DNA of 62,152 nt from positions 1 through 62,152 of IMG/VR virus record IMGVR_UViG_3300035168_000171; one strand, written 5' to 3'. Every line of letters starts with the position of its first letter. Position 1 is the first letter of the stretch. Source of the DNA: a virus. Both the position numbers and the translations under genes were made by a program. Of this stretch, positions 3,238 to 10,107 are shown piece after piece. The notes under the pieces are model-generated. The model was not told the origin of the DNA. It saw nothing but the letters and a program-made list of their open reading frames with translations, and searched no databases.

Positions 3238-3569
3238 GAGGACAGTGTAGCAGAGGGAAGGGAGATTGTACAATATGGGAGGGGGGTCTCGTGGGCGAAA
3301 GGTGTCGAGTGCGGGCTCGGCAAGCCGTCCCCACGGTACAGGCCACCCCCAGTCGAGCTTGGCAGACGCGCGAGACCCCTGCCAGAGCGGCGCCAGCAAG
3401 CGGATACCCAATCGAGGCCTGCAGGCCAAGCAGACAATGCTACTTCAAGCCAGCCAAGCGAGGCAGTGCTCAGATTTCAAGCAGAAATGTCTGGACATTC
3501 GGCTTCCAATGTTGTACAATGAAATCATCAGGTCGGAGCATCCAGCCCCGCCAGACAGTCAGGATCCAC
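3238..3569. promoter_or_regulatory. Divergent control region between late and early genes
   Basis: No gene is supported here. The palindrome ATTGTACAAT at 3265-3274 offers a TACAAT box on both strands. GGCCTGCAGGCC is a second palindrome near 3415. The plus-strand promoter at 3492-3520 completes the region. Residues 3550-3567 resemble the 5' flank and bulge of the first tRNA-like element. Confidence 0.5.
3492..3520 (+). promoter_or_regulatory. Early promoter P1
   Basis: TGGACA, 17 bp, TACAAT. No start codon lies at +7, so this copy drives a leadered mRNA whose first start is at 3570. The bases before the -35 box (AGAAATGTC) match those before P2 and P4. Confidence 0.8.
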
Positions 3570-3752
3570 ATGCTCACTCAGGACTACGTCAACAGCCTCG
3601 AGCGCCTCGCGCGCCTCGACCTCGGCCCCGACGCCCACCCAGATGACGTCACGTACCACATCGGGTACCTCCTCGACCTCACGGCCGCTCAGTTCCAACG
3701 CTACCTCGCGCGCCTCGGCCTCCACTCCGGCCCCCGCAACAGGTGCTTCTGA
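3570..3752 (+). CDS. 60-residue early protein
   Basis: This is the first gene after P1. AGGA lies six bases before the ATG. The product (MLTQDYVNSLERLARLDLGP...) is likely helical. No family recognised. The first tRNA-like RNA element follows 11 bases after its stop. Confidence 0.6.
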   Translation: MLTQDYVNSLERLARLDLGPDAHPDDVTYHIGYLLDLTAAQFQRYLARLGLHSGPRNRCF

Positions 3753-3763
3753 CATCGATTGCC

Positions 3764-3803
3764 GCCAGACAGGCAGGCTCCCGGGTTCAAGCCCCGGGCT
3801 GGC
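3764..3803 (+). ncRNA. tRNA-minihelix-like RNA element 1
   Basis: The outer stem pairs 3764-3768 with 3799-3803 (5 bp). The 11-base 5' bulge is ACAGGCAGGCT. The inner stem pairs 3780-3785 with 3793-3798 (6 bp). The 7-base loop is TTCAAGC, matching the tRNA T-loop rule. ACTCC follows. Confidence 0.75.
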
Positions 3804-3806
3804 ACT

Positions 3807-3825
3807 CCGGTCCACTCAGGACCGG
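3807..3825 (+). promoter_or_regulatory. Leader hairpin before the 3844 gene
   Basis: Seven perfect pairs (3807-3813 with 3819-3825) close a 5-base loop, ACTCA. It lies just 3' of element 1 and ends directly before the purine-rich leader of the next gene. Equivalent hairpins with different stem sequence follow elements 2 and 4. Confidence 0.65.
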
Positions 3826-3843
3826 GAGAACAGGATTGACCAC

Positions 3844-3975
3844 ATGACCACCACCAACCCGTGGGGTATCCACTGTGTCGACTGCACAGTCGAGCAGCCC
3901 TGCCCCCGCTGTGCCGAGCAGATTGCCGCCGAGCACGCCTACCTCCTCCGTACACGTCACGATCACGACGCCTAG
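3844..3975 (+). CDS. 43-residue zinc-ribbon-like protein
   Basis: The protein has two Cys pairs, CVDC and CPRC, nine residues apart, as in a minimal zinc ribbon. It starts MTTTNPWG. The 25-base leader and start (3824-3848) is exactly repeated before the next gene. Confidence 0.65.
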   Translation: MTTTNPWGIHCVDCTVEQPCPRCAEQIAAEHAYLLRTRHDHDA

Positions 3976-4009
3976 CCAGCAGGCATCCGGGTGCGAGCCC
4001 CGGATAGGC
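3970..4009 (+). ncRNA. tRNA-minihelix-like RNA element 2
   Basis: The outer stem pairs 3970-3973 with 4006-4009 (4 bp) and includes part of the upstream TAG stop. The 11-base bulge is AGCCAGCAGGC. The inner stem pairs 3985-3991 with 3999-4005 (7 bp). The loop is TGCGAGC. ACTCC follows. Confidence 0.75.
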
Positions 4010-4012
4010 ACT

Positions 4013-4028
4013 CCAGGCCCACGCCTGG
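4013..4028 (+). promoter_or_regulatory. Leader hairpin before the 4047 gene
   Basis: Six perfect pairs (4013-4018 with 4023-4028) close a 4-base loop, CCAC. The stem sequence differs from the hairpin at 3807 but position and shape are the same. Confidence 0.6.
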
Positions 4029-4046
4029 GAGAACAGGATTGACCAC

Positions 4047-4205
4047 ATGACAGCAGCAAGCAAGCTGCATGCCTACCAGGCAGCAGTTGACTTCAAGTTC
4101 GATCACACGGTCGAGGGCACGCCAGCTTGGCACGCCGCCGACCAGGAGTGCGATCGGCTCTGCTACGACTTCGTCGTAGCTAGCCACCGGGAGCGCGACT
4201 TGTGA
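4047..4205 (+). CDS. 52-residue early protein
   Basis: The product is MTAASKLHAYQAAVDFKF..., acidic and aromatic with two Cys. Its stop overlaps the GTG of the next gene (GTGA), so the two are translated as a pair. No family recognised. Confidence 0.6.
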   Translation: MTAASKLHAYQAAVDFKFDHTVEGTPAWHAADQECDRLCYDFVVASHRERDL

Positions 4206-4438
4206 AGGCCGAGCTCATCACCCAGGTCCGCGAGGACGACCACGAGTTGTTCCTCATCCGCTACAAGTGCGAACTTTGGGCCTTCGTCTACCACGACGAC
4301 CCAGCACTTGACTTCGTCGTCGACCCGGCAGGCTACTGCCGAACCGACATCTGGGACCCCTTCGGCGCCTACAGCCACCCGATGGTCCCAGAGGACCTCT
4401 GGGTCGAGGTCGAGAACTTGATCACAGCCAACAACTAA
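4202..4438 (+). CDS. 78-residue early protein
   Basis: GTG start coupled to the preceding stop. The protein is rich in Asp, Glu and aromatic residues, as in DNA-mimic-like or beta-rich small phage proteins. Net charge is strongly negative, which would suit an inhibitor of a DNA-binding host protein, but that is only a guess from composition. Confidence 0.65.
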   Translation: MKAELITQVREDDHELFLIRYKCELWAFVYHDDPALDFVVDPAGYCRTDIWDPFGAYSHPMVPEDLWVEVENLITANN

Positions 4439-4440
4439 CC

Positions 4441-4462
4441 CGTCGAGTCAAGGACCTCGACG
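4441..4462 (+). promoter_or_regulatory. Intergenic hairpin upstream of element 3
   Basis: Seven perfect pairs (4441-4447 with 4456-4462) close an 8-base loop. Here the extra hairpin lies 5' of the tRNA-like element rather than 3' of it. Confidence 0.55.
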
Positions 4463-4464
4463 GC

Positions 4465-4506
4465 GCCCTCACCAGCAGGCACCCAGGCGCGAGCCCTGGG
4501 GAGGGC
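4465..4506 (+). ncRNA. tRNA-minihelix-like RNA element 3
   Basis: The outer stem pairs 4465-4470 with 4501-4506 (6 bp). The 11-base bulge is ACCAGCAGGCA. The inner stem pairs 4482-4487 with 4495-4500 (6 bp). The loop is CGCGAGC. ACTCG follows. Confidence 0.75.
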
Positions 4507-4532
4507 ACTCGACTACCAGAAGGGAATTGACC

Positions 4533-4763
4533 ATGACAGGAGCCGAGCTCATCAAGGCGGCCCAAGCGGGCGACTTCGCCCACTTGGCCCCCAGGGACAG
4601 TGCCGAGGACACCCTCCAGCTCTACCTGGACTGCAACCACTTGGCCCGGCTGGGTGGCGCTCCCTGCGTCATCTGCGAGTCCCCGGATCACGCAGCCGAG
4701 GATTGCCCAGATGGGGCAGCCTGGGACGCGCTCGAGCAGGACCCGGCAGACCGGGAGTTCTGA
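4533..4763 (+). CDS. 76-residue protein with zinc-knuckle-like motif
   Basis: The ATG has AGAAGGGA eight bases before it. A helical N-terminal half (ELIKAAQAGDF) is followed by CVICESPDHAAEDC, which resembles a Cys-x2-Cys-x5-His-x4-Cys zinc knuckle. No homologue recognised. Confidence 0.65.
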   Translation: MTGAELIKAAQAGDFAHLAPRDSAEDTLQLYLDCNHLARLGGAPCVICESPDHAAEDCPDGAAWDALEQDPADREF

Positions 4764-4769
4764 TTGATC

Positions 4770-4809
4770 GCCTGACCGGCAGGCATCGAGGTTCGAGCCC
4801 TCGACAGGC
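4770..4809 (+). ncRNA. tRNA-minihelix-like RNA element 4
   Basis: The outer stem pairs 4770-4774 with 4805-4809 (5 bp). The 11-base bulge is ACCGGCAGGCA. The inner stem pairs 4786-4791 with 4799-4804 (6 bp). The loop is TTCGAGC. ACTCC follows, then a second hairpin at 4812-4828 (6 bp, loop ACCCA). Confidence 0.75.
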
Positions 4810-4845
4810 ACTCCGCCACCCAGGCGGATGACAAGGAGAACAGCA

Positions 4846-4995
4846 ATGAGCAACTACCCCGACAGGCTCGTCCAGAAGGACGGCACGGTCATCCGGCCGG
4901 CCGTCGACCCGGACTCCCTGCGCAGGCAGGCCCACATCCGGCGCGAGCGCGATGCCCTCGCCCGCTTGATCTTCGAAGTGGAATCGACGACGTGA
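4846..4995 (+). CDS. 49-residue early protein
   Basis: AAGGAG lies seven bases before the ATG. The C-terminal half is a basic helix (LRRQAHIRRERDALARL). Its stop overlaps the next gene's GTG. No family recognised. Confidence 0.6.
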   Translation: MSNYPDRLVQKDGTVIRPAVDPDSLRRQAHIRRERDALARLIFEVESTT

Positions 4996-5126
4996 GCCCG
5001 GCAGACGACCTCATCGAGGGCATCGAGCCCGAGATCCACGAAGAGGTGATCCGTTGGATCGCCGACCACTACCCAGAGGTCGCCCAGGCGGCGATGGAGT
5101 GGTTCGTGATGCCGCTTGAAGGGTGA
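4992..5126 (+). CDS. 44-residue acidic early protein
   Basis: GTG start coupled to the upstream stop (GTGA). The protein is mostly acidic helix. Its stop codon lies inside the outer stem of element 5, so translation to the end would unfold that stem. Confidence 0.55.
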   Translation: MSPADDLIEGIEPEIHEEVIRWIADHYPEVAQAAMEWFVMPLEG

Positions 5127-5160
5127 CTGGCAGGCACCGGGGTTCGAGCCCCCGGCACCC
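5121..5160 (+). ncRNA. tRNA-minihelix-like RNA element 5
   Basis: The outer stem pairs 5121-5125 with 5156-5160 (5 bp) and includes the TGA stop of the preceding gene. The 11-base bulge is ACTGGCAGGCA. The inner stem pairs 5137-5142 with 5150-5155 (6 bp). The loop is TTCGAGC. ACTGG follows, then promoter P2. Confidence 0.75.
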
Positions 5161-5191
5161 ACTGGGAACCAGAGATCTTCCCACAAATGTC

Positions 5192-5220
5192 TGGACAAAC
5201 CAGCTTGAACATGTTACAAT
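5192..5220 (+). promoter_or_regulatory. Promoter P2, leaderless ATG
   Basis: TGGACA, 17 bp, TACAAT. The ATG at 5227 begins at +7 from the -10 box. A second in-frame ATG at 5251 has AAGGAG seven bases before it. Confidence 0.85.
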
Positions 5221-7752: not shown

Positions 7753-10107
7753 TCACGGCCAACTACTCTCTGTAGTCGCACTCATCCTCCACCCTCGATA
7801 TCCCATCACTCTTCGACCATCCACCAAATTCACTCGGACCTTCTCCATCCCTCTCTCACGCAATGCGTACGCAAGCTTCGTCGGCCCCATCGGCTTCACC
7901 TGTTCCGCACTACACCACGCCACATACACAGTGTACATCTCATCCCAAATCGCCACGTCATCTCGACCCCCGACCTCAAGTGTCTCCGACAACCACCGTC
8001 GCACCGGATCCGACCTAAGAGCGTGCTCCTCAACCTCCACATCCGACCTTGGCGGTCGTCCCAACTTCCCACTTTCCAACATCCGCGCCAACCCCTCCCA
8101 CGCCCACCAGAGGATCGCCGCGCCGGCCCCTTCCGATTCTTCCAACCACGTCTTCACACCCGGATCCCGGCCCACCCGATCCAACGGGACCTCCATTCCG
8201 AGGAACATCATCCGCTCCAAGAGGGCAGTATCCCGCGTGTCCGGGACGTGGTTGGTGTGCACCCAGAGTTTGAACTGCCCGCGATATTCGATCGACCCTT
8301 GATACAATGCCCGGGCGACGATGGTGTCGCCACCCGTCGCCGCCTTGATCACACCCTCGTCCAACCTCGTCCCGACCTTCATCTCATTCACTGTCACCAA
8401 CCGCGCACCCCGCGCCCGGTACAGCGCCTCCTGCACATTCACGCGCGAGTTTGCCACAATTGTCTCAGCCGTCCACCCCACCGCATATTCACCGAGCGCC
8501 CGGGCGAACGGCTCTGTCACCGTGCTCTTCCCAGTATTCGCGGGGCCGTGCATCGCGAGGATCGCTTTCTCACCGTCCAGGCCGGTCAGGCAGTACCCCA
8601 TCCAACGTCGCAACCATTCGCGATCCGCTTCATCCGGGATCCGCTCCTCAACTACCCGCTCCCAGACCTCATCCCGGGCCCCCCAAACGAACGGCACCCG
8701 GGTCATCTTTGTCACCAGATCGCCGGGCCGCGAAGGTCGCAATGCACCCGATCGAAGGTCCACCAGACCGCCCGGCGTGTTCAACACCATCACATCCGCG
8801 TCAAGCTCTCGGGCTTTCACAACGAAGGCGTCCCGGGCGTAGTTGAGGCAGGCGTCACGCCCCTGTACGGTGCCAAGCCGGTTCGCACGGCGGATCAGGA
8901 TTGTGTATCCGTCCGGGCCGGCATCGGCAGCCTGTCGCACAAGCTCGTGCCCCAACTCGACGATCACGCGGTGCCGAACCAATCCCTCATCTACGACCCA
9001 ACGCTGCCCGTCCCAGGCCAGCCACCCCATCCCGGCGTTCCACAACAAGCGTCCCGCCGCAAACCCTTTCAACTCGAGGGCGTTCTCATGATCCGGGCCA
9101 ATCGCTTCCGGAGGCTCACCGAGTATCGCCGGGCCGGCAGGCGGAGGTAACGGCAGAGGTACCGCCGGTCCCTGCTCTGCAACCTCAATCAGAGCATCGG
9201 CTACCCCCGGACTCTCCGCCCAAGCCGACAGCTCACTCCCGACTTCTGACGGACGGTACTTTGCCCAAGCACCGGCCACCATCGCGAGCACATCGACCTC
9301 AGACCACGGGCCCTTGTCCGGGTCCGTCCGGAGCAGCATCATCGCGTCAATCGCCGCTCGGTCCGCAACCTGCCGGGCGTACCCGCGCCGACGAAGCGAC
9401 GCCGTGAACGCGAGCAGAGCCGACCGTTGCCCGCCAGAGCCTGTCGCACCAACACGTACGACCTCCGAGGCAAGCCACTCGTCGGGCCCCGCATTGCCAT
9501 CTTCACCGGACCAATCCGCGCCATCCTCGGGGGCATTGGGATTGGCAGCGAACGCCATCGACACCAACCACGCAGGTGCGGGTCGAAGCGCCGTACCTCC
9601 CGTTATCAGGTCATACCGGCCGGCATCACTCCAACTCCCGGGCGCTGCAACCCAACCACCCTCTGCGATCACGTCCAGGCCGGCACCGTACGCCATCCTG
9701 TGCTTCCTCAACCCAGCGCACTCCGGCGTCCACTCGAAGTAGTAGTGCCAGCCACCACCGGGGGTCGTCACCATGAACGTATCCGGCGGGAGCTCGCCGT
9801 ACTCGCTGATCATCCGTGCGAGTGTGACGTCGCCGCCGTTGCGCGGATCGATGTCCAACACCCACAACCGAGATTCCGCCCCACACACGATGCCTGGCGA
9901 GTGCCCGAAGTTGATGCCCCACCACGCTCGGACATCATCTTCCGTCTTGAATGCCGCGCCGGCCTGCCACCCCCTGATCTGCGGGACCTTCCGGCCCTCC
10001 AACAGCATCCAGGGCAGCACCTGCCACCCCAACCGAACCGACGCCACGGCAGCCTGCCCGTTCCGGTTCCTTCGGTGTTCGATGTCTCCGACGCTTACCG
10101 TTGCCAT
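7753..10107 (-). CDS. Primase-polymerase / SF3 helicase
   Basis: The 784-residue replication initiator has an N-terminal Prim-Pol domain (about 20-190) with the metal-binding LDIDPRNGG motif and the GWHYYFE strand, a D5-like linker, then a superfamily 3 helicase with Walker A GPANTGKST near residue 520, Walker B-like VTVNEMK, and the sensor region WVHTNHVP. It would prime and unwind phage DNA. The C-terminal domain has a winged-helix look. AAGGAGG lies close before the ATG. It is an isolated minus-strand gene with plus-strand genes on both sides. Confidence 0.9.
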   Translation of the reverse strand: MATVSVGDIEHRRNRNGQAAVASVRLGWQVLPWMLLEGRKVPQIRGWQAGAAFKTEDDVRAWWGINFGHSPGIVCGAESRLWVLDIDPRNGGDVTLARMISEYGELPPDTFMVTTPGGGWHYYFEWTPECAGLRKHRMAYGAGLDVIAEGGWVAAPGSWSDAGRYDLITGGTALRPAPAWLVSMAFAANPNAPEDGADWSGEDGNAGPDEWLASEVVRVGATGSGGQRSALLAFTASLRRRGYARQVADRAAIDAMMLLRTDPDKGPWSEVDVLAMVAGAWAKYRPSEVGSELSAWAESPGVADALIEVAEQGPAVPLPLPPPAGPAILGEPPEAIGPDHENALELKGFAAGRLLWNAGMGWLAWDGQRWVVDEGLVRHRVIVELGHELVRQAADAGPDGYTILIRRANRLGTVQGRDACLNYARDAFVVKARELDADVMVLNTPGGLVDLRSGALRPSRPGDLVTKMTRVPFVWGARDEVWERVVEERIPDEADREWLRRWMGYCLTGLDGEKAILAMHGPANTGKSTVTEPFARALGEYAVGWTAETIVANSRVNVQEALYRARGARLVTVNEMKVGTRLDEGVIKAATGGDTIVARALYQGSIEYRGQFKLWVHTNHVPDTRDTALLERMMFLGMEVPLDRVGRDPGVKTWLEESEGAGAAILWWAWEGLARMLESGKLGRPPRSDVEVEEHALRSDPVRRWLSETLEVGGRDDVAIWDEMYTVYVAWCSAEQVKPMGPTKLAYALRERGMEKVRVNLVDGRRVMGYRGWRMSATTESSWP

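Follow-up and report, generated by a model that had tools for sequence, protein, structure and literature searches.

Imitation of transfer RNA (tRNA) is known from viral 3' ends, riboswitches and stable RNAs. In the yjdF riboswitch a tRNA-like elbow stands in the mRNA leader upstream of the ribosome-binding site; both its tRNA-like aptamer and true tRNAs raised translation from upstream of a Shine-Dalgarno sequence (2- to 6.3-fold for the tRNAs), and mutation of both elbow G's of yjdF left translation near background (PMC9142559). Here we describe a 40-nt element that occurs five times in an early gene array of the virus record IMGVR_UViG_3300035168_000171, whose complete 62,152 bases we call the window. 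The element is almost certainly a conserved RNA fold, a minimal mimic of the tRNA elbow that acts as RNA. It shares with yjdF the elbow in a leader, but yjdF is larger, with an anticodon-like arm and a ligand site, whereas the present element is repeated at junction after junction of a single operon, which argues against a ligand sensor. No yjdF or other riboswitch model gave an Rfam match; more generally, Rfam 15 returned no family at gathering threshold in the window and none that could be assigned at loose thresholds. Sub-threshold similarities to DUF2693-FD and sul1 were judged to be chance; that to sul1 falls far short of its cut-off, and the Bacteroidetes copies described below have no DUF2693-FD match.

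With tRNA itself the element has in common the T-loop pattern, the G19-C56 and 18-55 contacts, the stack of acceptor stem and T-arm, and a following R-C (R, purine) that resembles N73-C74. It differs in its length of 40 nt, in having no anticodon arm (the bulge directly adjoins the T-arm), in a D-stem of one pair, in a stack of 11 bp and in the pairing of bases 59 and 60 with the bulge. ARAGORN called no tRNA in the window, and two of its calls in other contigs overlap elements. For bacterial RNase P, which pairs with D73-C74-C75, an acceptor stem with a T-arm suffices, and hairpins of this kind are cleaved (PMC11143913). We compared the elements with the model hairpins AT1 and pMini and with the natural substrates phage P1/P7 C4 RNA, 4.5S RNA, transfer-messenger RNA (tmRNA) and the tRNA-like structure (TLS) of turnip yellow mosaic virus (TYMV); the elements, as putative substrates, differ in being internal mRNA sites with an 11-bp helix and an R-C mostly without a full R-C-C. 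The mascRNA-menRNA family (RF01684) is likewise tRNA-like without a normal anticodon arm and shows a weak model similarity (17-21 bits), but this is far under its gathering score of 42.5, and mascRNA is eukaryotic with cloverleaf remnants.

The early mRNA of phage T7 carries intercistronic RNA structures, long double-stranded stems that are cut by RNase III. The present elements similarly punctuate an early operon between cistrons, but the T7 sites have no T-loop. Cluster K mycobacteriophages also have repeated elements upstream of starts, the start-associated sequences (SAS), a fixed 13-bp GGGATAGGAGCCC immediately before start codons, to which the extended form (ESAS) adds 17-bp imperfect inverted repeats (PMC3203893). 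The SAS had been put forward as a loose precedent that is not tRNA-like, and the parallel is indeed one of position only, since SAS and ESAS have no tRNA-like core and the present elements have a different consensus and mostly end 33-55 nt before starts. In the openly licensed literature we found no description of the family, although an earlier account elsewhere is possible; tRNA mimicry being known in kind, what appears new is the element family, the 59/60 pairing and the repeated use at junctions. Probably, the elements are a previously undescribed and widely shared class of phage RNA, perhaps the smallest natural tRNA-elbow mimic, which at uncoupled junctions lets host tRNA-reading machinery (RNase P/RNase Z or the ribosome) make cistrons independent. 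A 40-nt mimic set repeatedly along the operons of DNA phages, in hosts of several phyla, would extend the uses known for the fold. RNase P, RNase Z and other machines that read the elbow would have in it a putative minimal substrate of natural origin. It would also allow a convenient test of whether leaders shaped like tRNA govern expression in bacteria, and could serve as a transferable part that insulates the genes of an operon.

Five elements of one fold lie in the window

All five elements lie on the + strand. Four of them, element 1 (3764-3803), element 2 (3970-4009), element 4 (4770-4809) and element 5 (5121-5160), have a 5-bp outer stem, an 11-nt bulge, a 6-bp inner stem and a 7-nt loop. 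This is the typical 40-nt core, which reads as five outer bases, the bulge, six inner bases, the loop and both complements. Element 1 is built of outer strands GCCAG/CTGGC, bulge ACAGGCAGGCT, inner strands CCCGGG/CCCGGG and loop TTCAAGC (61.6 bits, E 6e-14). Element 2 (outer GCCTA/TAGGC, bulge GCCAGCAGGCA, loop TGCGAGC; 56.7 bits, E 2e-12) is a variant with A9 facing G24, and contains the TAG stop codon (3973-3975) of the gene upstream. Element 3 (4465-4506) has a 6-bp outer stem (GCCCTC/GAGGGC), bulge ACCAGCAGGCA and loop CGCGAGC (38 bits, E 3e-7). The loop TTCGAGC is common to element 4 (outer GCCTG/CAGGC, bulge ACCGGCAGGCA; 68.6 bits, E 6e-16) and element 5 (outer GGGTG/CACCC, bulge ACTGGCAGGCA; 68.9 bits, E 5e-16), the latter holding the TGA stop codon (5124-5126) of the gene upstream.

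A covariance model searched against the 62-kb window returned exactly these five, with E values from 5e-16 to 3e-7; element 3 was outside the training set of the model and the other four were inside it. For a sequence pattern that fits two of the window elements, 0 matches were expected (100 shuffles). Minimum free energy (MFE) folding of single sequences has no means of representing the pseudoknotted bulge-loop pairs and so does not always return the fold; for elements 4 and 5 it is misleading, favouring a nested use of these pairs.

Covariation defines a tRNA-like elbow

We examined an alignment of 85 sequences against a named structure of 16 pairs, pseudoknots included. Paired bases fill 99.4% of the cells compared with 72% in shuffles, and there are 350 two-sided changes compared with 97 in shuffles, with 13 of the 16 pairs showing such changes. 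Shifting the partners by one column lowers pairing to below 50%. As the stems had already served to select copies and the tertiary pairs had not, it is the tertiary pairs that provide the key evidence. We assessed these in an independent collection of 197 unique sequences, chosen by their stems and a loose T-loop pattern alone. Position 14 forms a Watson-Crick pair with position 29 in 184 of the 197 (G-C 86, A-T 84, C-G 10 and T-A 4), the remaining 13 being mostly G-U. Within those 184, the 7-13 pair is C-G in 128, G-C in 28, A-T in 20 and T-A in 4, the 15-28 pair is C-G in 180 and G-C in 3, and the 9-24 contact is G-T in 170 and A-G in 13.

For a non-redundant set of 109 sequences, differing at five or more of 40 bases and with no filter on tertiary pairs, covariation was scored with the average product correction (APC). 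The 13 highest-scoring column pairs comprise the ten variable stem pairs together with 7-13, 14-29 and 9-24. They score from 73 to 239, with the next column pair at 51 and a permutation maximum of 27 under a null without phylogeny; the three tertiary pairs (73-192) rank among the stem pairs. The earlier note on this DNA had described the five copies, their common fold and the covariation of their stems, and all three hold. A chance set of GC-rich hairpins, the alternative that it weighed, is refuted by the covariation among homologous copies.

The same data bear on a role at the DNA level, as a repressor stoperator, a recombination site or a chance GC-rich repeat. The elements are repeats, and R4-like phages do carry stoperators in intergenic regions (PMC10276819). 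Stoperators, however, are fixed-sequence DNA operators, whereas the stems of the element vary freely, with both-sided compensation in stems and tertiary pairs alike. Furthermore, phage Saftant has a separate repeat (L001, 266-7832, + strand), TGTGACAGTG, which is present in 8 copies of one orientation. This repeat is not the same as the elements and is apparently that phage's stoperator. Covariation rules out a DNA-level feature as the main explanation, and we give it next to no weight.

A closer comparison with tRNA revealed several contacts of the elbow. In the 85-sequence alignment G10, G22, T23, C25 and A27 are invariant, as is the G10-C25 pair. The loop T23 T24 C25 R26 A27 N28 N29 corresponds to tRNA positions 54-60, and G9/G10 of the bulge correspond by sequence to G18/G19 of the D-loop, so that 9-24 (G-U or A-G) matches the tRNA 18-55 contact and G10-C25 the 19-56 contact, a G-C pair. 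Bases 59 and 60 are flipped out of an ordinary T-loop; here the loop bases at these positions pair with bulge bases 15 and 14. The 7-13 pair forms a D-stem of one base pair. Judged by its sequence, the 11-nt bulge is a miniature D-arm whose G-G would dock on the T-loop as in tRNA. Because the loop and bulge bases match the elbow contacts and a one-pair D-stem is present, we describe the element as a stripped tRNA: it keeps a 5-bp acceptor stem, stacked on a 6-bp T-arm, and a strand from which the elbow is rebuilt, but has no anticodon arm. The previously suggested likeness to the acceptor and T-arms is thus strongly supported, and it now extends to the bulge as a D-loop mimic with the additional covarying pairs 7-13, 14-29 and 15-28.

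Elements occupy uncoupled junctions of early operons

The early array of the window lies on the + strand and begins with a gene of 60 amino acids without a family match (3570-3752). Element 1 follows, then a gene of 43 amino acids (3844-3975), element 2, two coupled, overlapping genes (4047-4205 and 4202-4438), element 3, a gene of 76 amino acids (4533-4763), element 4, a second coupled, overlapping pair (4846-4995 and 4992-5126) and element 5. The element is therefore present at the junctions (stop/start) 3752/3844, 3975/4047, 4438/4533, 4763/4846 and 5126/5227, and absent from the coupled junctions 4205/4202 and 4995/4992.

We surveyed junctions in the early arrays of six annotated phages, the window included, scoring the T-arm. 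It is present in 41/48 gaps of 75 bp or more and in 4/8 gaps of 30-74 bp, in 0/20 shorter or overlapping junctions and in 0/6 leaders of first genes. Long gaps outside the early arrays have it in 1/12 cases. The claim that elements stand at every uncoupled junction and never between coupled genes is thus correct for the window, and its second half extends to the six phages, but some long gaps are exceptions to the first. In annotated phages all copies are on the sense strand and usually start 6-16 nt past the stop codon; in the actinophages among them they mostly end 33-55 nt before the next start codon. Strand, placement and covariation together imply that the element acts in cis, as RNA; the cis element of the earlier note accordingly stands, with processing, tRNA-enzyme capture and translation control all remaining candidates.

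The flanks are conserved as well. In the non-Bacteroidetes set the first base of the element is G in 93% (G+1), the base after the core is a purine in 94% (R41) and the next is C in 96% (C42). Position -1 is unpaired with 41 in 92%, with A or C usual and T in only 4%. At position 43, C is avoided (10% against a background of about 32%), and R-C-C occurs in just 9 of 162 copies. Bacteroidetes copies mostly begin with T or C. Of 165 non-Bacteroidetes copies, 91 are followed by a second hairpin whose stem has 6 bp or more, compared with 14 in shuffles, and 74 of these 91 hairpins begin 3-5 nt past the core. The ACTCC or close variant said to follow each element resolves into two parts, a conserved R-C and the start of the second hairpin.

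Distribution in phages and host phyla

A BLAST search with element 5 matched 577 places in 142 phage records, whose hosts are Streptomyces (113), Mycobacterium (24), Gordonia (4) and Arthrobacter (1). Arrays of the element are present in the fetched regions of Saftant, Lika, phiHau3, Konstantine and Papyrus, and Morgana has at least two strong copies. When viral contigs were scanned with a pattern, the element turned up in at least dozens from uncultivated viruses, and genome contigs scanned likewise extended the range to Actinobacteria, Bacteroidetes and one Gemmatimonadota; the elements in bacterial genome contigs are probably in prophages. In a genome screen it was found in 3/397 Actinobacteria and 2/396 Bacteroidota, centre genomes included, and in 0/399 Pseudomonadota and 0/399 Bacillota, frequencies that are lower bounds because the first filter was lossy and copies can be missed. 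An unclassified bacterial metagenome-assembled genome (L142, 4089-4361) has three near-identical tandem copies about 116-121 nt apart. In a Corynebacterium contig (L146, 4801-4880) the element comes right after the stop codon of a head-protease-like gene and is followed by a terminator-like hairpin and a T run.

Up to 15 matches to the model R1 were found in a single 57-kb contig. Multiple copies per phage would suit decoys acting in trans, excised or nascent mini-tRNAs that, early in infection, would tie up host enzymes that bind tRNA or defence nucleases that cleave it, as would the position in early operons of small accessory genes, annotated OCR-like antirestriction genes among them. Elements placed so strictly at uncoupled junctions, and so near to the start codon, point instead to action in cis, and decoys are improbable.

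Further junctions are filled by classes that have the same T-arm and other bulges. Konstantine has a GATGGTCGAA bulge class with loop TTCGACT, and Papyrus a AACGGTTTTCG bulge class with loop TTCGATT; variants with a 12-bp stack also occur in Konstantine. Divergent T-arm elements that model R1 misses, with other bulge sequences and in some cases a 12-bp stack, were seen in two contigs (L005, 10840-10932 and 13373-13519; L006, 4352-4438 and 4733-4821). Across classes, the conserved quantity seems to be the elbow rather than one sequence.

Presence in only some phage lineages, in arrays, could be explained if a regulator or antitermination factor that the phage encodes, and that binds RNA, had its site here. 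The same core, however, is shared by phages that are unrelated and whose hosts belong to at least three phyla, which points to a universal reader of tRNA shape. Nor was a candidate partner protein found among the window early genes searched, where those other than the gene at 4846-4995 gave nothing useful in Pfam or PHROGs. We consider a regulator site very improbable.

The Bacteroidetes copies have a context of their own. The distance from the element to a start codon is usually 16-36 nt, most copies lack the second hairpin, and all six long open reading frames tested behind elements encode Mu-like transposases (PHROG 310). Two scans with Mu transposases gave six relatives, one of which (L183) has the element before the transposase. 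In several contigs an inverted repeat like CACTATA...TATAGTG covers a promoter-like sequence and ends a few bases from the element. Such repeats, seen before the Mu-like transposase genes of L139, L140, L168, L183 and L085, are probable lytic-repressor operators, and, with the promoter read by eye, the early transcript probably starts with the element. Paired elements about 110-140 nt apart also occur in Bacteroidetes (L028, 839-1020; L101, 2391-2573; L133, 5196-5350), and between them is a short conserved stretch ending CAGAAATCTGG, then an AGGTA-like sequence; the stretch possibly encodes a small peptide.

Processing and translation as candidate functions

We tentatively favour a function in processing, in which the elements act in cis on polycistronic mRNA as imitation pre-tRNAs and are recognised by the host endonucleases that mature tRNA. 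The predicted cuts are by RNase P, immediately before the element, and possibly by RNase Z, immediately after the purine that follows it. These cuts would separate the cistrons as 'tRNA punctuation', in the manner of the RNase III sites in T7 early mRNA, and the new 5' end would be protected by the tRNA-like fold or the second hairpin. Processing accounts for the bases at the would-be cut sites and for the empty first leaders, and gives the second hairpin a place at the newly made 5' end. The non-Bacteroidetes set displays the features of an RNase P substrate, namely an acceptor/T-arm stack with T-loop, an unpaired N-1 and G+1-C72, and the invariant G10, G22, C25 and A27 correspond to tRNA G19, G53, C56 and A58, which are named as RNase P contact or interference positions (PMC11143913).

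Several observations weigh against processing by RNase P. The stacked helix of the main class is 11 bp, whereas RNase P reportedly measures 12 bp. RNase P prefers R-C-C, whereas C is avoided at position 43 and few copies have R-C-C; this avoidance fits RNase Z better. In the Mu-like prophages of Bacteroidetes the element tends to lie right behind a promoter/operator-like repeat, where a 5' cut would remove few bases. Pseudomonadota and Bacillota both have RNase P, yet none of the 399 genomes of either carried the element in our lossy screen. Finally, the invariance of the elbow is not specific to RNase P, as the fold itself needs those bases.

The other mechanism that merits serious consideration is a translation enhancer, and the two are close, although we hold this one with somewhat more doubt. 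By analogy, a tRNA-like fold upstream of the ribosome-binding site might bind the ribosome and raise initiation at uncoupled cistrons, possibly by way of the elbow platform that serves the L1 stalk or the E site. The yjdF and tRNA leaders described above are a direct precedent (PMC9142559), and the distances to the start codon, mostly 33-55 nt in actinophages and 16-36 nt for most Bacteroidetes copies, agree with it, as does the absence of elements at coupled junctions. It also suits both contexts with the fewest extra assumptions. Enhancement would not, however, predict that the first genes of early operons have no element (0/6), and alone it leaves unexplained the conserved G+1, R41, C42 and unpaired -1, as well as the second hairpin between element and start codon.

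That hairpin, right behind elements that are at mRNA junctions and near predicted 5' ends, may also be read in terms of mRNA stability, where a compact junction fold would block exonucleases or 5'-end sensing and early-mRNA decay products would survive. The Corynebacterium copy between a stop codon and a terminator-like hairpin is in keeping with this. A simple hairpin would suffice for such protection, though, and the conserved elbow (the 9-24, 14-29 and 15-28 pairs) would be unexplained, so stability is an unlikely primary function.

Promoters, second hairpins and neighbouring genes

Two promoter-like sites were found in the window compared with 0.2 expected, both on the + strand. The first, TGGACA-N17-TACAAT (3492-3520), precedes the first array gene, giving a leader without an element; the second (5192-5220) comes directly after element 5, which is thus followed by a promoter and not directly by a gene. 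A block of CANAAATGTCTGGACA then TACAAT occurs twice in the window, at 3482-3520 and 5182-5220. These repeated blocks are likely early promoters, perhaps with a repressor site.

Second hairpins are predicted by folding on the + strand after element 1 (3806-3826, where family-wide enrichment adds support), element 2 (4012-4029) and element 4 (4812-4828), with a weaker one after element 5 (5163-5183). Element 3 has a predicted hairpin upstream (4440-4463) and none downstream. Outside the array, a gene for the large terminase subunit (959-2611) and one for a Prim-Pol/D5-type primase (7753-10107) lie on the - strand, opposite to the early array.

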